NCBI RefSeq assembly: GCF_000830885.1
Contig: NZ_CP006951.1
Location: 744,001 to 808,000 of the forward strand
DNA from: Dehalococcoides mccartyi CG5
Lineage (GTDB): Bacteria; Chloroflexota; Dehalococcoidia; Dehalococcoidales; Dehalococcoidaceae
Length of the DNA: 64,000 nucleotides
Direction: 5' to 3'
Shown: piece after piece, positions 37,873 through 59,498 of the stretch
Layout: each line of letters opens with the position of its first letter
Numbering within the stretch: the stretch's first letter is position 1
Notes under the pieces: model-generated
Seen by the model: only the letters and a program-made list of their open reading frames with translations
The model's database searches: none
What the model was told of the DNA's origin: nothing
Program-made: the position numbers and the translations under genes

Positions 37873-38454
37873 TCATTTGGTCTGTCGGTAAACATTTGCA
37901 AGCCGTTGAATAACAGTTATCAAACTGAGAACACTTACCAAGACCAATACTGGAACGAGTATATTCAGCATCATGCCTATAGCCAGTGCAACCACCCGTT
38001 CAGGTCTGGTAAAAAATCCTTCTTTTCCTTCAAGCCCCATGGCTTCGGCTCTAGCCCGTATATAACTGACCAGCAAAGAAAGTGTGAGGGTAATTACCGC
38101 CAGCACTACCTCAGTTGTCTGCCCGTTTTGGGAATAAAAAGCGCATACCCCGATAAGAATTGCAGCTTCCGAGACCCTGTCTAAAGTAGAATCAAGCACT
38201 GCCCCGAAGCGGGTAACCCTGCCGGTCCGGCGGGCAAGTGCCCCGTCCAGCATGTCAAATACACCTGCCAGCAACATAACTATTCCCGCTAAAAGCAGGT
38301 TCCCATTAACTATGATTACAGCCGCCACCAGAGTAATAACAAAACCGATTATCGTAACCATATTTGGGGTAAGACCGGTTTTAGCTAAAAGATTTATGAC
38401 GGGGTTTGTAATTTTAAGGGCAATTTCTTTACGCCAACTTGCCATACCAGACAT
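37873..38454 (-). CDS. CDP-alcohol phosphatidyltransferase (phosphatidylinositol-phosphate synthase-like)
   Basis: A 193-residue membrane enzyme with about six helices. The catalytic signature D-x2-DG-x2-AR-x8-G-x3-D-x3-D is intact (DMLDGALARR ... FGAVLDSTLD, about residues 66-91). The family joins a CDP-lipid to an alcohol phosphate. Directly upstream in the operon are a PimA-like glycosyltransferase and inositol-phosphate synthase, so inositol-1-phosphate is the likely acceptor, giving an inositol phospholipid. PgsA (glycerol phosphate) is an alternative. The start could be the ATG three codons downstream. Confidence 0.85.
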   Translation of the reverse strand: MSGMASWRKEIALKITNPVINLLAKTGLTPNMVTIIGFVITLVAAVIIVNGNLLLAGIVMLLAGVFDMLDGALARRTGRVTRFGAVLDSTLDRVSEAAILIGVCAFYSQNGQTTEVVLAVITLTLSLLVSYIRARAEAMGLEGKEGFFTRPERVVALAIGMMLNILVPVLVLVSVLSLITVIQRLANVYRQTK

Positions 38455-38499
38455 TTTATTCAGACTCTTTTCTGCCCTGACCTAAAGGCAATAGTCTAA

Positions 38500-39648
38500 C
38501 TATTTACCTTCCGGCCCGTGGTGATTTTTACTTAACACCAAATGGTAGTACTCTTCTACTTTTTTAGCAACCCTTTTCCAGCTATATTGCTGGACTGTCT
38601 TTAATCCTTCGGCACTCAGCTCAGATCGCATATCAGGGTGGGTTATGAGTTTTATCAAGGTTTTTGCCAGTTCATCAGCATTTTTAGGAGGAACGAAAAG
38701 CCCCTCTTTGTTATCCGTCAGCACACACTGGTATCCTTCAATTCGCGAAGCAACAATAGGCACGCCCAAAGCCATAGCCTCCAAAAGTACAATGCCGAAA
38801 CTTTCCTGACCGGTAGCCGGAGAACAGTAAATATGGGCTGTCTTATAGTAACGCGGTAAATCATGACAGGAAACCCCGCCTACAAATACCACATCAGAAA
38901 GTCCGTGTCTTTTTACCATATTGCGATAATGGCTAATTTGCCGGGGTGTACCCGGCCCTACTATCAGAAGCCTTGTCTGGGGGCACAGGGGCTTAATCTG
39001 GGCGTAAGCATCAATAAGATAGCCCAATCCCTTGCGGCTTTCCATTCGCCCCACAAAAAGGATATTAAGCTTGTCATCTATATATTCTGAAAAAGGCTGC
39101 ACTTCTGTATGGTATAAATCCAGATCTATACCGTTTGGCACAATGGTATATTCACCGGGTATATATTTGGAGGCAAAACGCAAAGCCGCATTTGAAACCG
39201 CCATATGACCATGAAGGTTTCGTCTCCGCCGCCGCAGGAAGATTCGGGTAAAAGGCCACCCCAGATTATAACCGGGTTTCCCCTGACTGGCATGGAAGGT
39301 AGCCACATTACAGGTTTTGGAGAATCTGAGCATAGCACTGCATAGCATTATCATAAATGGCTCATGCAGATGGATAACATCAAACTTTTCTTCGGCCAGA
39401 ACTCTCTTTATGCGGTTTTTTAGATTGACCGAAAGGCTGATACGAACAACTGTTCCAGAGGTAGCTAAGGGGCGGGGCTTGCCGACTTGAATAAAATCCG
39501 TGCCGTATTCCGCCAGAGACTTTGATGCTGGGGCAATGATGCGAACATCATGCCCCAGCATTTTAAGTTCTTTATAAAGCGAGTTAACGTGGTTAACTAC
39601 GCCACCCGGATAAGCAAAATCATAAGGACATACTAAAGCTATTTTCAC
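38500..39648 (-). CDS. PimA-like GT4 glycosyltransferase
   Basis: A 382-residue GT-B fold glycosyltransferase. The N-terminal YDFAYPGGVVNHV (about residue 9) is typical of PimA-type phosphatidylinositol mannosyltransferases. The donor-binding region shows VGRMESRKGLGYLIDAY (about 195-211) and SFGIVLLEAMALGVPIVASR (about 288-307), with the E-x7-E motif. The neighbouring inositol-phosphate synthase and CDP-alcohol transferase suggest glycosylation of an inositol lipid. It could be a different GT4 enzyme; the acceptor is inferred only from the context. Confidence 0.83.
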   Translation of the reverse strand: MKIALVCPYDFAYPGGVVNHVNSLYKELKMLGHDVRIIAPASKSLAEYGTDFIQVGKPRPLATSGTVVRISLSVNLKNRIKRVLAEEKFDVIHLHEPFMIMLCSAMLRFSKTCNVATFHASQGKPGYNLGWPFTRIFLRRRRRNLHGHMAVSNAALRFASKYIPGEYTIVPNGIDLDLYHTEVQPFSEYIDDKLNILFVGRMESRKGLGYLIDAYAQIKPLCPQTRLLIVGPGTPRQISHYRNMVKRHGLSDVVFVGGVSCHDLPRYYKTAHIYCSPATGQESFGIVLLEAMALGVPIVASRIEGYQCVLTDNKEGLFVPPKNADELAKTLIKLITHPDMRSELSAEGLKTVQQYSWKRVAKKVEEYYHLVLSKNHHGPEGK

Positions 39649-39692
39649 TGTTAACCGCCAACTAACCTATAGTATCACTAAGGAAGTTCGGG

Positions 39693-40805
39693 TTATTTCT
39701 CTGCCTTCTTCTCAAGCCCCGCCACTTTTTTGGCAGAAGTCTTTTTAATGAACTCAGCGGTCATAAGATGCGCGGCATCATCGGTATACTGAACCGGAGG
39801 TGACTTCATGAAATATGAAGAGGGTTCGTTCAGTGAACCAGACATGCCATTATCCATGGCCAACTTACAGCAACGAACAGCGTCAATAACTACACCGGCA
39901 GAGTTAGGGCTGTCCCAAACTTCCAGCTTCATTTCCAGATTCAAAGGAACATCACCGAAGGTTCGGCCTTCCATGCGGATATGGCAGAACTTGCGGTCTT
40001 CAAGCCACGGCACGTAATCACTGGGACCTACATGGACACAGTCGGGATCCAGCTTGTAGTCAAGCTGTGAAGTAACAGCATTGGTCTTGGAAATTTTCTT
40101 GGATTCCAGCCGTTCGCGTTCAAGCATATTCAGGAAGTCAGTGTTACCGCCGAAGTTCAGCTGATAAGTCTTTTCCAGCTTAACACCCCGGTCACAGAAA
40201 AGTCTGGTCAGTACGCGGTGGGTAATAGTAGCACCCACCTGTGACTTGATATCATCGCCGATAATAGGTACACCGGCAGTTACAAAACGCTGCTGCCAGT
40301 ACTTTTCACGGGCAATAAATACCGGTATGCAGTTAACCATACCGCAACCGGCTTCCAAAATCTGTTCCACATACCATTTGGTGGCTTCCTCTGAACCAAC
40401 GGGCAGATAGTTGATAACAACGTCTGTTTTGGTTTCTTTGAGGATTTTCACAATATCAGCAGTAGAGCCAGGAGCCTTCTGAATAATCTGGGAAAGATAC
40501 TTGCCCAGACCGTCATGGGTCATGCCGCGCTCAACCTTGATACCCATTTCGGGCACGTCAGTGAATTTGAAGGTATTGTTAGGCTTGGTAAAAATAGCTT
40601 CACTAAGGTCTTTGCCGACTTTGTTCTTGTCAATATCAAAGGCAGCAGTAAAGTTAATGTCGCTAACGTGATAACCGCCAAGATTAACATGCATCAGACC
40701 TGGAACGAATTCAGTGTCCTTTGCTTTCCGGTAATAGTGAACACCCTGTACTAAGGACGAAGCACAGTTACCAACACCGATAATGGCAACGTTGATTTTA
40801 CCCAA
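39693..40805 (-). CDS. ino1: Myo-inositol-1-phosphate synthase
   Basis: A 370-residue NAD-dependent enzyme that turns glucose-6-phosphate into inositol phosphate. Motifs: NAD loop [16 protein letters not shown] (about residues 6-21), [12 protein letters not shown] (about 160), [18 protein letters not shown] (about 182-199) and [11 protein letters not shown] (about 218), all characteristic of the archaeal/actinobacterial short form. It heads the inositol-lipid cassette. The product may also serve the MshA-like enzyme at 55540-56757. Confidence 0.94.
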
Positions 40806-54813: not shown

Positions 54814-55527
54814 TTACCACCACATATCCACCCGGTGGAAGGATTCGGTCTTAACATATTTTTCAGCATCAGGGTATATCTCTGTGTATTTTCCCAGATC
54901 TCCCATTTCACTCATAGCCGAAATAACTTCGTCCATTCTGCCGCCGCCCTGGCTTTTATGGCAGGAAATAGATTTTAGTTTTAATATTGCGGTCTGGCTG
55001 ATATCTACCTGATAATTCGGCTCTTGCGGGTTCGAAAGCAGAAGCTCGGTAACTTTATGAGGTTCAAGCCCTTCGGATATAAGGTCCGGATAAGCCAGAT
55101 GATCACGCGAATACGGGAAAATAGCATCCATAACAGCTTCTCCGCACTGGCGGTGGTCTCTATGCCACCAGAGATACCGTTGGTACGGGTCTGTAGTAAT
55201 AACGGTAAATGGTTTGAAAGTGCGTATCTGACGTACCAGCTCCTTACGCAGTTCGGGCGTATTTTCAAGCCCCTGGTCAGGTTTGCCCAAAAAAACCACC
55301 CGGCTGACACCCAGCACACCTGCCGCCTGCCGCTGTTCTTCTTCTCGTATTTTTACCAGTTCAGACGGTATCATATTGCGGTCAGAAGTGCCTTTATCCC
55401 CATTGGTACATACCACATAAGCCACTTTTTTACCCTCGGCGGTCATTTTGGCAATAGTTCCGCCCGCACCAAATTCGGCATCATCCGGGTGAGGCATGAT
55501 AACCAATACATCTGCTTTGAAAGACAT
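54814..55527 (-). CDS. PIG-L/MshB-like N-acetylglucosamine deacetylase
   Basis: A 237-residue zinc deacetylase of the PIG-L/LmbE family. The zinc motif MPHPDDAEFGAGG (about 11-23) and WWHRDHRQCGEAV (about 119-131) show the catalytic HPDD and distal HRDH. It is last in an operon with a MshA-like glycosyltransferase (12 nt away) and a FemAB/CelD-like protein. In mycothiol synthesis MshB deacetylates GlcNAc-inositol; in bacillithiol BshB does a similar job. The substrate is inferred from context only. Confidence 0.88.
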   Translation of the reverse strand: MSFKADVLVIMPHPDDAEFGAGGTIAKMTAEGKKVAYVVCTNGDKGTSDRNMIPSELVKIREEEQRQAAGVLGVSRVVFLGKPDQGLENTPELRKELVRQIRTFKPFTVITTDPYQRYLWWHRDHRQCGEAVMDAIFPYSRDHLAYPDLISEGLEPHKVTELLLSNPQEPNYQVDISQTAILKLKSISCHKSQGGGRMDEVISAMSEMGDLGKYTEIYPDAEKYVKTESFHRVDMWW

Positions 55528-55539
55528 CTCTCCTCCGTT

Positions 55540-56757
55540 CTATAGAACCCCTGCTGTTTCAGGGTCTAAAATACCATAATATACAGACTCTATTTGAGCG
55601 GACACAGACTGCCATGTATATTCTTCTGCTATTTTACGTATAGCCTTATGGTTAGCGATTTTTTGGTAAAGCCATTCCTTCAGGCAGAGTGCCAGTTGTT
55701 CGGGTTGATTACCGGGGATAAGGCAACCGTTTATACCCGGACGAATGATATCAGGAGCAACCCCTACTCTGCCGCTGATAACCGGAGTACCACAAGCCAT
55801 AGCTTCCAGTATAACCATGCCAAAGCTTTCATAATACGATGGGATTATACAAACTTTGGCGGCATTATAATATTTTGCCAGGACGTCCTGTTTGACCGAC
55901 CCGTAAAATTTCACTTTATCTGAAATAGCCAGCTCTTCCGCCACTTTTTCCAGCCTGTTTCTTTCACCTTGGCTATATTCATCACCGCCAACCACCAGAA
56001 GCTCCATATCAGCCTCAATCAGTGAAACCGCCTTGAGCAGATTATCCAGCCCCTTAAGTTTCTCCAGCCTCCCCACAAATAACGCTTTGGGGGCGGCGGA
56101 AAGCCCCAATTCTGCCTCAGCCTCAGCCCGGTCAGTGATGGAAAAAAGCCTTGTATTTACCCCGCATGGGATTACCCTTATTTTATCTGGTTCAGCCTGA
56201 TATAGAGATATCAGGTCATTTTTTTCATTTTGAGTAGCGGCTATTATCAAGTCTGTTTCGTGTACTATATTTTGTTCGGCATCCAGCCGAAGCTGGGGGT
56301 CAACCTGTGCCTGCATCAAACGGTTTTTAACCTTTCCCAGCGTGTGAAACATAACCAGATGGGGCACTTCCCAGAGTTTGCTTAACGCCAGCCCTGCTCT
56401 GGCAGACAGCCAGTAATGACTGTGGATGAGATCATATTTAATACCTTCAGCCTTACGGAATGCCTCCAGCCCGCAAACAAAGCTTTCCAGATGCTCATAC
56501 TGAGCCAGCTTTCCCATATCTTCTACCGGCCCGGCCTGAATGTGAATAAGCCGAACATTGGGGGCTAAAAACTCCCAAACGTCATCACGGGGGTCATGGG
56601 CACGGGTATAAATATCAACCTGGTAACCGCTATTTCCCAAAGAACGCGCCAACTCGCAGATATACACATTCATACCGCCGGTATCCCGTCCTCCGGGTTG
56701 CCCCAGAGGACAGCTGTGCAGGCTGACAAGGGCAATATTTAATTTCTTTTTAGCCAA
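55540..56757 (-). CDS. MshA-like inositol-phosphate or malate N-acetylglucosaminyltransferase (GT4)
   Basis: A 405-residue GT4 enzyme. The N-terminal HSCPLGQPGGRDTGGMNVY (about 14-32) is the distinctive MshA pattern (GGMNVY, LGQPG), which suggests an inositol-phosphate acceptor. The donor site has VGRLEKLKGLDNLLKAV (about 227-243) and SFGMVILEAMACGTPVI (about 315-331). Sequence similarity to the bacillithiol enzyme BshA is also part of this family. The next gene encodes PIG-L, the expected next step. The genome segment also carries ino1, which could supply the acceptor. Confidence 0.85.
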   Translation of the reverse strand: MAKKKLNIALVSLHSCPLGQPGGRDTGGMNVYICELARSLGNSGYQVDIYTRAHDPRDDVWEFLAPNVRLIHIQAGPVEDMGKLAQYEHLESFVCGLEAFRKAEGIKYDLIHSHYWLSARAGLALSKLWEVPHLVMFHTLGKVKNRLMQAQVDPQLRLDAEQNIVHETDLIIAATQNEKNDLISLYQAEPDKIRVIPCGVNTRLFSITDRAEAEAELGLSAAPKALFVGRLEKLKGLDNLLKAVSLIEADMELLVVGGDEYSQGERNRLEKVAEELAISDKVKFYGSVKQDVLAKYYNAAKVCIIPSYYESFGMVILEAMACGTPVISGRVGVAPDIIRPGINGCLIPGNQPEQLALCLKEWLYQKIANHKAIRKIAEEYTWQSVSAQIESVYYGILDPETAGVL

Positions 56758-57739
56758 CAGTTTGCACCTGATTATTCAAATTTATTTGGCATTTGTAAAC
56801 CGGCTGGGATTTTCCGCCCAGATGAAATTTGTACTTCTCTTCCCCCCGCAGAAAATCAAAGGCATCATATCCTTTTTCTATAGCATCTTTGACAGCCAGC
56901 ATTTTTGATAGCACGCCCACGCTCAGGTGGGAATATTCAGGACGATACCCGCTATTATACAAATACCTTATATTATTATAGTCAAAGCAAAACAGACTGG
57001 CCAGAGTGGTATCTGCTGTCTTCAGAAATACCAAACGCAGATATCCCTGACCGGCAAGCCAGTGTGCCAGTTGCCTGAAATAACAACGCATTTCAGGGCT
57101 GAGGAAAAGTGCCTTTTCGGGGTGGCTTTGTTCCATCTGCTCAAGCAAGATTTCTACACTTTCAGGGTTGGTATTTATTTCCAGCCTTGGCGTCAAGGCT
57201 TCATCAAGACGGCGCAGCTTACGTTTCAGTTCGTGGCGCTGGTGCGGCTCCAGCATAGACATATACTTGTCAAAGTCAGCTGGCAGATCCAGCAGAGGCG
57301 AGACATCTGCCTGTTCGCAGATTATCTGAAAACCTTTTTCTTTGGCCATAGGCAACAGGTAGTTATAAGCTTCGGAACGGGAAGTCAAACTTTCCAGTTC
57401 CAATATCTCAACCTGCTTCTGCTTCAGCAGTTTCATCAGCAGTTCAAAATATCCCAGCTGGTGACCGGGCTTAACCATGAAATCCAGATAATCAAAAACG
57501 CTTCCGTCAGCTATAAAACGGGCAACTCCGTTATTTATACGCAAGGCTATCAACCCTATGGTTTCAGTTTCACTAGTAACCAACCCGCAGATTTGCCGGT
57601 CTGACGGTGAAAAACACTTCTGCCAGACAGACTGCCAGCCCGGGTGGATAAACGGGTTGGCAACATTCAACCCGTTTTGGCTGGCATCAAAATTACGGCT
57701 TAATTCCTCAAGTCCCAGTTCTTTAAAAATATATACCAC
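56750..57739 (-). CDS. FemAB/CelD-type GNAT-6 acyltransferase
   Basis: A 329-residue protein of two GNAT-like halves (BioF2/CelD/FemX-like). The C-terminal half has SLFCFDYNNIRYLYNSGYRPEYSHLSVGVLSKMLAVKDAIEKGYDAFDFLRGEEKYKFHLGG-type features: Y-x-Y-x-SG (about 270), HLSVG (near 277) and FLRGEEKYK (about 303), the marks of the family. It starts at GTG and overlaps the next gene by 8 nt. Such enzymes add aminoacyl or acyl groups, often in capsule or peptidoglycan synthesis. Here it may act on the product of the MshA-like and PIG-L enzymes. Confidence 0.8.
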   Translation of the reverse strand: MVYIFKELGLEELSRNFDASQNGLNVANPFIHPGWQSVWQKCFSPSDRQICGLVTSETETIGLIALRINNGVARFIADGSVFDYLDFMVKPGHQLGYFELLMKLLKQKQVEILELESLTSRSEAYNYLLPMAKEKGFQIICEQADVSPLLDLPADFDKYMSMLEPHQRHELKRKLRRLDEALTPRLEINTNPESVEILLEQMEQSHPEKALFLSPEMRCYFRQLAHWLAGQGYLRLVFLKTADTTLASLFCFDYNNIRYLYNSGYRPEYSHLSVGVLSKMLAVKDAIEKGYDAFDFLRGEEKYKFHLGGKSQPVYKCQINLNNQVQTVG

Positions 57740-57839: not shown

Positions 57840-57859
57840 ATATGCTAATATACGCATAT
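57840..57859. promoter_or_regulatory. Dyad operator of the arsR operon
   Basis: ATATGC (57840-57845), TAATATAC, GCATAT (57854-57859): an inverted repeat with an 8-nt spacer, as in ArsR/SmtB sites. It lies 9 nt before the arsR ATG, overlapping the likely promoter. Confidence 0.6.
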
Positions 57860-57868
57860 GGGGGTTTT

Positions 57869-58207
57869 ATGGAAAACTACGTTAATATATTTAAATCATT
57901 GGCAGACGAATACCGCCTGAGGATACTCAGTTTGTTGTTCAAACAGGAGTGTTGCGTTTGTGAAATCCAGCAGGCTCTGGGCATAAGCCAAACTTCTGCC
58001 TCCCGTCACCTTCAAAACCTGCATCAGGCCGGGCTGATAAAGCTCCGTCGTGACGGGTTGTGGGCACTTTATTCGGTGGATTATGGCGAATTTCCGTCTG
58101 ACATTAGAAAACTAATGCAGTATACAAAGGAAATGCTGGCACAAAACCCGCAAGCCTTGCAGGATTTTAGCCGGCTGAAGGCCAGTTGCCGGAGAGGTAA
58201 CGTCTGA
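57869..58207 (+). CDS. arsR: ArsR-family metalloregulator
   Basis: A 112-residue winged-helix repressor. The metal-sensing site in helix alpha-3 shows ECCVCEIQ (about residues 27-34) in place of the ELCVCDL of ArsR, so arsenite or antimonite sensing is likely. The recognition helix reads SQTSASRHLQNL. The ATG at 57869 is preferred over an in-frame ATG nine codons upstream, which would fall in the operator. The next gene begins by overlap (TGATG), as expected for an operon repressor. Confidence 0.85.
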   Translation: MENYVNIFKSLADEYRLRILSLLFKQECCVCEIQQALGISQTSASRHLQNLHQAGLIKLRRDGLWALYSVDYGEFPSDIRKLMQYTKEMLAQNPQALQDFSRLKASCRRGNV

Positions 58208-59238
58208 TGGATTTTATTTTTAACCTGCTGGCGGGCGGTTTTTCTGCCCTGTTGGAATACCTTTCGGCCCATGTTATAGCTTGTCTGGTGCCGGCGTTTT
58301 TTATTGCCGGGGCTATTTCGGTTTTTCTTAATCCGGCTATAGTTACCAAATATTTCGGCAGTAAAGTAAACCCCTTTGTCTCATACAGTATCGCCTCTGT
58401 TTCAGGGTTTATACTGGCTGTGTGTTCGTGTACGGTTTTACCCCTGTTTGCCGGCATCTACAAACGGGGCGGGGGTATCGGTCCAGCAGTCACATTCCTG
58501 TATTCAGGCCCGGCTATAAGTATTTTAGCGGTTTCTTTGTCAGCCGGAGTACTGGGCTACGATATCGGCATTGCCAGAGCCATTTTTGCCATCATTTTTG
58601 CCATATTGATAGGATTTATTATGGCTTACCTGTTCCGCAAAGATAAATCAGATACCCCACAGCCACTGGCCAATTTGCCTGCTGATACTGCCAATGAACG
58701 TCCCATGTACCAAACTCTTATCTATTTTGGCAGCCTTGTTGCCATACTGATATTCGCATCTGCCAAGAATATACCCGTATTCCTGCTGGCTCTTTTGGTA
58801 TTGTTATTCAGCCTGTGGCGGTTTTTCAAAATGGCTCAAATAAAAGAATGGCTTTCGGAAACATGGCGGTTTGTAAAGCTTATTTTCCCATGGCTGATAG
58901 GCGGCATTTTTATAGCCGGAGTTTTGAAAACCCTGATTCCGGCTGAATTTATAACCACCTATGTAGGTAGCAATAATCCGGTTTCAAACCTGATAGCTTC
59001 ACTTTCGGGTGCCTTGCTATATTTTGCAACTCTTACCGAAGTACCCATAGTCAAGGCATTTATGGACCTTGGTATGGCCAAAGGCCCGGCTCTGGCACTG
59101 CTGCTGGCAGGACCGGCAGTTTCCCTGCCCAGTTTCTTGGTTATCCGAAAAATATTGGGCAATACAAAAGCCCTTACTTATATTGGGCTGGTGATACTCA
59201 GCTCAAGCATGGCCGGGTTTATATTCGGCATATTTTAA
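58207..59238 (+). CDS. ArsP-type permease (DUF318)
   Basis: A 343-residue permease with about ten helices in two halves. The VCSCTVLPLFAGIYKRGGGIGPAVTFLYSGPAIS stretch (about 78-111) is the DUF318 hallmark, and its echo LTEVPIVKAFMDLGMAKGPALALLLAGPAVSLPSF (about 278-312) is the second repeat. Members such as ArsP export trivalent organoarsenicals. It overlaps arsR and precedes a thioredoxin-like protein, which could reduce pentavalent arsenicals or recycle the metal. The exact substrate is not proven. Confidence 0.83.
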   Translation: MDFIFNLLAGGFSALLEYLSAHVIACLVPAFFIAGAISVFLNPAIVTKYFGSKVNPFVSYSIASVSGFILAVCSCTVLPLFAGIYKRGGGIGPAVTFLYSGPAISILAVSLSAGVLGYDIGIARAIFAIIFAILIGFIMAYLFRKDKSDTPQPLANLPADTANERPMYQTLIYFGSLVAILIFASAKNIPVFLLALLVLLFSLWRFFKMAQIKEWLSETWRFVKLIFPWLIGGIFIAGVLKTLIPAEFITTYVGSNNPVSNLIASLSGALLYFATLTEVPIVKAFMDLGMAKGPALALLLAGPAVSLPSFLVIRKILGNTKALTYIGLVILSSSMAGFIFGIF

Positions 59239-59255
59239 ATCAAAGGAGAGCAGAA

Positions 59256-59498
59256 ATGATAATCAAAGTGTTAGGTACAGGCTGTGCCAAGTGCAATAAA
59301 CTGGAAGAAATGACCAAAGAAGCAGTCATAGAACTGGGTTTAGCTGCTCAGATTGTAAAGATAAAAGAGGTAGATAAGATATCTGCTTATCCTATATTGA
59401 TGACTCCAGCTCTGGTAATAGATGAAGAAGTGGTAATATCCGGCAAGATACCCACCAAAGACGAAATGCTGAAGCTTATCTTGTCCAAATCCAAATAG
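59256..59498 (+). CDS. Thioredoxin-like redox-active disulfide protein
   Basis: An 80-residue minimal thioredoxin-fold protein (redox-active disulfide protein 2). The CxxC active site is in GTGCAKCNKLEE (about residues 7-18), and the cis-Pro stretch is MTPALVIDEEVVISGKIP (about 50-67). These proteins commonly follow DUF318 permeases, and probably supply reducing power for the arsenic system. RBS AAAGGAGAG. Confidence 0.88.
   Translation: MIIKVLGTGCAKCNKLEEMTKEAVIELGLAAQIVKIKEVDKISAYPILMTPALVIDEEVVISGKIPTKDEMLKLILSKSK

Follow-up and report, generated by a model that had tools for sequence, protein, structure and literature searches.

The present study addresses what a conserved three-gene locus makes in an anaerobic bacterium and, if the product is a thiol of the mycothiol type, which enzyme attaches its cysteine. 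The stretch analyzed, hereafter the window, comprises 64,000 nt of the complete 1.36-Mb genome of Dehalococcoides mccartyi CG5 (NZ_CP006951.1, positions 744,001-808,000). On its minus strand, as proposed in an earlier note on this DNA, three open reading frames were confirmed with their order and coordinates, encoding a FemAB/GNAT protein with a double GNAT architecture (FEM; 56750-57739; 329 aa from a GTG start; Acetyltransf_6, Pfam PF13480, 8.5e-32), an MshA-like glycosyltransferase (GT4; 55540-56757; 405 aa from a TTG start; Glycos_transf_1, 5.3e-41), and a PIG-L family zinc deacetylase (PIG-L; 54814-55527; 237 aa; PF02585, 2e-34). The start of the GT4 gene overlaps the end of the FEM gene by 8 bp, and the PIG-L gene, which is preceded by a strong Shine-Dalgarno sequence (GGAGGAG), begins 12 nt past the GT4 gene; the three form a tight operon. 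The answer we favor, which we place somewhat on the probable side, is that they encode a mycothiol-type pathway whose cysteine-attaching enzyme is not MshC but a Fem-type ligase, which would move cysteine, probably from Cys-tRNA, onto glucosaminyl-inositol (GlcN-inositol).

Recurrence of the trio and its relation to MshC-like paralogues

The order FEM-GT4-PIG-L is also carried by GT4 matches in Chloroflexota families distant from that of the window. As an independent test, FEM alone was used as the query against 84,980 species genomes, and GT4 was present less than 700 bp downstream of FEM in 73 of the 80 loci returned, the FEM-GT4 loci including those of Desulfobacterales, Desulfobia, and other Desulfobacterota bins. 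A tandem-GNAT MshD-like gene was present at 34 of the 80 loci, mostly convergent between GT4 and PIG-L, and for the five such neighbors tested, the best NCBIfam model was MshD (74-108 bits; cut-off 163). In many organisms, one neighborhood thus holds counterparts of MshA, MshB, and MshD together with FEM and without MshC. Because the order recurs across Chloroflexota and beyond, it is ancient and no chance arrangement. Each of the three families is, by itself, large and versatile, which would suit three generic enzymes of unrelated function that are neighbors by chance; that explanation, however, hardly merits credit in view of the overlap and short gap between the genes, the order kept in both Chloroflexota and Desulfobacterota, and the finding of FEM without GT4 in just 4 of 87 genomes.

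The earlier note had not seen the mycothiol ligase MshC. A search of the window genome with the cysteinyl-tRNA synthetase (CysRS) family and the MshC model TIGR03447 likewise gave no MshC, the single strong CysRS-family match being an ordinary full-length CysRS. When TIGR03447 was run over 301 Chloroflexota genomes, many were found to encode a second CysRS-family protein, which scored 350-416 bits. The representatives of these MshC-like proteins end approximately 111-143 aa after the KMSKS motif, as MshC does, compared with approximately 190-200 aa in CysRS. Most of them grouped with Mycobacterium smegmatis MshC on the tree, apart from CysRS, with the pair from family f12 branching next to the MshC/CysRS split, and for the one protein tested, MshC was the best PDB match. 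The MshC-like assignment was made by score threshold and a tree of representatives, with family labels given by the tool. Genomes with two or more CysRS-like matches outside the tree of representatives were classed as ambiguous. To call FEM orthologues, profile A3 was used; its scores left a clear break from 234 down to 187 bits.

GT4 was present in 209 of the Chloroflexota genomes, 83 with FEM and 126 without it. An MshC-like gene was absent from 74 of the 83 genomes with FEM, present in 8, and ambiguous in 1, whereas 97 of the 126 FEM-less genomes had an MshC-like gene, 22 were ambiguous, and 7, which are 76-94% complete, had neither. At the level of families, with ambiguous genomes taken as MshC-like and one family represented by a single ambiguous genome, the 62 GT4-positive families were divided into 27 with FEM only, 28 with the MshC-like gene only, 7 with both, and 0 with neither (Fisher p of approximately 3e-11, a statistic that ignores phylogeny). 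Families f28 and f35 each contain FEM-only and MshC-only genomes, and the two partner types interleave on the GT4 tree, with about 10 changes between them. Taken together, these counts indicate that FEM and the MshC-like paralogues almost exclude one another.

Such exclusion could also reflect lifestyle, and for this reason the strongest rival reading is that the GlcN-inositol core is kept and FEM adds an acyl group or an amino acid other than cysteine, yielding a non-thiol conjugate, so that the FEM- and MshC-type lineages would differ in product. Fem-type ligases use many amino acids, including Ala, Gly, Leu, and others (PMC12945691), the lineages with FEM only could live differently from those with MshC only, and the genomes having both genes fit different products. 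A non-thiol conjugate is, however, difficult to reconcile with the substitution of the two genes for one another on one GT4 family, in which no GT4-positive family is without both, with the swaps inside f28 and f35, and with the MshD-like genes by FEM clusters, the known relatives of which acetylate Cys-GlcN-inositol; the lack of a coenzyme A (CoA) motif in FEM, described below, also counts against this rival. On balance, we regard this rival as unlikely.

Some further observations concern MshC-like genes themselves. A strong MshC-like match was found together with no MshA-like GT4 at threshold in 12 Chloroflexota genomes, including G008, G021, G040, G083, G099, and G107 (family f29). One Chloroflexota MshC, L079 (G257:C31:55634-56458), was joined to M. 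smegmatis MshC with full support, which suggests transfer or contamination. At G298:C80:10761-15916, a CysRS gene and a shortened MshC-like paralogue are separated by approximately 3 kb, and the same genome has FEM as well.

Fold and motifs of FEM

FEM matched Acetyltransf_6 alone among Pfam families. For its AlphaFold2 model, which is confident (pLDDT 94), the top Foldseek matches were FemXWv structures, with Sbb17/Sba18 close behind. Alignment by VIA-align 2 gave a Z of 20.5 for FemX (6snr; root-mean-square deviation [rmsd] 4.4 over 293 residues), 19.9 for FemA, 19.6-19.9 for Sbb17/Sba18 (9wqy, Z 19.9, rmsd 3.4 over 271), and 18.2-18.9 for FemXWv (4ii9, Z 18.9, rmsd 4.1 over 287), followed by L-PGS/MprF (15.5-17.7) and CoA-dependent GNATs (approximately 14-15, including MshD 2c27 at 14.3). 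Domain 2 of FEM opens with a basic helix, in which R168, R173, and K174 are invariant, and Lys304 near the C terminus is also invariant. A positive helix and a catalytic Lys305 are described for FemXWv (PMC12945691), to which the basic helix and Lys304 of FEM may correspond. FemAB_like (PF04339) was matched by 22 of 30 FEM relatives, at 3.9e-7 at best.

FEM is proposed to be a double-GNAT ligase of the FemABX fold acting as a cysteine (aminoacyl-tRNA) transferase in the place of MshC. Its best chemical precedent is Orf11, a Fem-type ligase that uses Gly-tRNA to aminoacylate streptothrisamine (PMC12945691), together with Sbb17/Sba18, which were solved with this same acceptor. FEM shares the double GNAT fold with the FemABX and Orf11-Sba18 ligases (Z 18.2-20.5) but differs from them in belonging to Acetyltransf_6 rather than FemAB, in having no significant sequence similarity to the solved members, and in the substrates proposed for it, GlcN-inositol as acceptor and cysteine as amino acid.

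MshD, too, has the tandem GNAT make-up and the same pathway context, and it appears in the list of fold matches, so FEM could be imagined to replace this acetyl-CoA-dependent enzyme, with cysteine being attached by an unrecognized ligase. We consider this very improbable. FEM is structurally much nearer to FemX, FemA, and Sba18 than to MshD, and none of the 30 FEM proteins aligned has the CoA pyrophosphate motif, R/Q-x-x-G-x-G/A, at the GNAT position, whereas it is present in the MshD-like neighbors of FEM, which are separate genes at the 34 loci mentioned above; moreover, the anticorrelation of FEM is with MshC. The earlier statement that this gene differs from MshD therefore stands, with the change that FEM best fits the missing MshC step because of its mutual exclusion with MshC-like paralogues and its FemX-type fold.

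The glycosyltransferase, the deacetylase, and a possible source of inositol phosphate

The best NCBIfam model for GT4 was MshA, at 343.6 bits and below the curated equivalog cut-off of 462.5, followed by coryne-type glycogen synthase (142 bits) and BshA (85 bits; cut-off 273.7), and the best PDB matches were Corynebacterium glutamicum MshA (3c48/3c4q) and then cyanobacterial sucrose-phosphate synthase. The residues by which MshA binds inositol phosphate, namely, H9, GGMN at 22-25, K78, Y110, T134, and R154 in the numbering of UniProt/3C4V, are all present in GT4 and nearly invariant among the 29 Chloroflexota proteins aligned. Sucrose-phosphate synthase was rejected as an identity of GT4, which has GGMN/K/T as in MshA and not the GGQN/R/S of Tll1590 (Q24, R78, and S134 instead of M24, K78, and T134) and scored 118 bits with the sucrose-phosphate synthase model (cut-off 576). 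A role of GT4 in a defense island was also dropped, with no PADLOC match. From its retained pocket residues, GT4 is proposed to be a transferase of N-acetylglucosamine (GlcNAc) from UDP-GlcNAc to a presumed inositol phosphate acceptor.

PIG-L, which scored 119 bits with the PIG-L model, has intact PHPDD/HPDD and HxDH motifs, and these hold across an alignment of 18 proteins. BshB1 was the best of the specific models at 109 bits, MshB gave 37 bits, and both scores were under cut-off; its PDB matches included diacetylchitobiose deacetylases and BshB. PIG-L is a candidate, judged by family and motifs, for the GlcNAc-inositol deacetylase in the role of MshB. The only other PIG-L protein of the genome (L002:1303-2136, G000:C1:170971) appears by eye to open with a membrane or signal segment at its N terminus and is distantly BshB-like (68 bits).

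The mycothiol-like logic that the earlier note had seen, an MshA-like glycosyltransferase followed by a PIG-L deacetylase, is supported. The bacillithiol pathway (BshA-BshB-BshC) has the same logic of GT4 and then PIG-L, but the BshA score of GT4 is far under its cut-off, and BshC was found in 0 of the 61 genomes of the order, including that of the window, in a search with B. subtilis and the Thermus ring as controls. A bacillithiol reading is therefore disfavored.

The earlier note also pointed to Ino1, myo-inositol-1-phosphate synthase (39693-40805, minus strand; PF01658, 8e-38; NCBIfam mycothiol_INO1, 533.8 bits, cut-off 638), as a source of inositol phosphate. Ino1 is indeed in the window and could still supply GT4, but it lies outside the cluster, 14 kb from the trio, in a separate operon. 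It is found on the minus strand with a second GT4 gene (38500-39648), which is not MshA-like (88 bits), and a phosphatidylinositol-phosphate-synthase-like CDP-alcohol phosphatidyltransferase gene (37873-38454; NF045883, 168.3 bits, cut-off 170), and the whole, 37873-40805, is likely an inositol-lipid operon. Because Ino1 adjoins these two genes, its first explanation is the synthesis of inositol lipids, for which the trio need not be invoked. In D. mccartyi CBDB1, Ino1 (CbdbA943) is expressed and acetylated (PMC7918482). Ino1 is present in 268 of the 301 Chloroflexota genomes, including most of those without GT4, and its co-occurrence is hence uninformative on the acceptor.

The operon with Ino1 indicates inositol lipids, and this, together with the family name of PIG-L, would accord with decoration of a lipid or surface polymer, in which GT4 glycosylates phosphatidylinositol (PI) or another lipid, similarly to the glycosylphosphatidylinositol-like conversion of GlcNAc-PI to GlcN-PI, and FEM modifies the amine. 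Acetyltransf_6/FemAB_like proteins are also often annotated in polysaccharide pathways. GT4, however, keeps the MshA pocket for soluble inositol phosphate and scored only 82 bits with a lipid glycosyltransferase model, GlcN-PG synthase, and no lipid or surface gene family recurs in 40 trio neighborhoods, so that we find this reading improbable. Of the two products that the earlier note had entertained, an inositol-glucosamine-based small molecule and a lipid anchor, the former would hold in the shape of a small thiol, and the latter is disfavored by the conserved soluble-acceptor pocket.

As for the surroundings of the trio in the window, it is followed by the tuf-secE-nusG-rplKAJL region, and an EF-Tu-family neighbor is present at just a few other trio loci. 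Divergent from FEM, at 57842-59498, an arsR-like regulator gene, an ArsP-type permease gene, and a gene for an 80-aa MTH895/ArsE-type thioredoxin-like protein stand in a row; this set showed no recurrence with the trio in the neighborhoods of relatives. No other gene family recurred beside the trio in the 40 Chloroflexota neighborhoods, and the proposal of a larger conserved cluster was dropped. The sole family added elsewhere is that of the MshD-like genes, in other taxa.

Predicted pathway and its meaning

In the pathway that we predict, Ino1 would provide inositol phosphate, to which the MshA-like GT4 would add GlcNAc with UDP-GlcNAc as donor, some phosphatase would act, as in the known mycothiol pathway, and PIG-L would take off the acetyl group to give GlcN-inositol. 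FEM would then move cysteine onto the glucosamine amine, with Cys-tRNA(Cys), charged by the only CysRS of the genome, an ordinary one, as the most likely donor; MshC, for its part, activates cysteine as Cys-AMP (PMC2922099; PMC9736012). No match to MshD was found in the window genome with TIGR03448 at E<=1e-8 or with a cluster-linked MshD-like model at 1e-15, and the predicted product is hence Cys-GlcN-inositol (des-acetyl mycothiol), which would be a low-molecular-weight thiol. In one survey, mshD turned up in just 27% of the genomes with mshC (PMC6282198), so that the absence of MshD here is not odd. We infer the inositol phosphate acceptor, cysteine as the amino acid, the tRNA donor, and the product.

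In comparison with the mycothiol pathway of Actinomycetota (MshA-MshA2-MshB-MshC-MshD), the MshA-like GT4 pocket, PIG-L, and Ino1 are shared, as is an MshD-like tandem GNAT in many relatives, whereas a Fem-type GNAT-fold ligase would stand in the place of MshC, the window genome yields no MshD, and the hosts are anaerobic Chloroflexota and Desulfobacterota. The hunch of the earlier note was largely right, FEM being proposed for the place of the missing MshC.

Several points weigh against this pathway. It is a prediction from genes, and GT4, Ino1, and the MshD-like proteins are all under the curated mycothiol equivalog cut-offs. Sequence and profile searches of FEM against the PDB gave no significant match to any solved structure, and its match to Pfam FemAB (PF02388) was weak (best E 0.055; 7 of 30 relatives); CelD-type acyltransferases from the Pfam family to which FEM belongs may simply be missing from the PDB. 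FEM and MshC could also exclude each other because lineages with unlike lifestyles make different products, so that their exclusion is no proof of the same reaction, and the 8 genomes with both genes count on the same side. In addition, the genus and family of the window yielded no MshD-like gene, and DinB-type proteins, which include known mycothiol S-transferases, were not found in the window genome. DinB_2 was considered as a thiol marker, being present in 200 of the 209 genomes with GT4 and 46 of the 92 without it, and was rejected as confounded with genome size and absent from the window genome.

With these points taken into account, we hold it to be nearly an even matter, tending slightly to the negative, that there is a second, non-homologous route of cysteine ligation, by a Cys-tRNA-using Fem-type ligase, which would make Cys-GlcN-inositol in strictly anaerobic Dehalococcoidales and a mycothiol-type thiol, with or without MshD-type acetylation, in other Chloroflexota and in Desulfobacterota. 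Complete mycothiol gene sets were found only in Actinobacteria in a 2018 survey (PMC6282198), an unidentified thiol of Chloroflexus aurantiacus is still cited (PMC6336425), and our search of the literature on mycothiol in Chloroflexi returned nothing specific. From the present data, most Chloroflexota are predicted to make a mycothiol-type thiol, using either FEM or an MshC-like enzyme, as are some bacteria related to sulfate reducers. If this is true, many anaerobes would contain an unrecognized cellular thiol, and the main thiol of organohalide-respiring bacteria would be a named, testable molecule. MshC would not be the sole way to put cysteine on GlcN-inositol, and a CysRS-derived enzyme and a Cys-tRNA-consuming enzyme would be interchangeable, such that a translation intermediate would feed the main small thiol of the cell. 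Genome searches for thiol pathways would then have to change.

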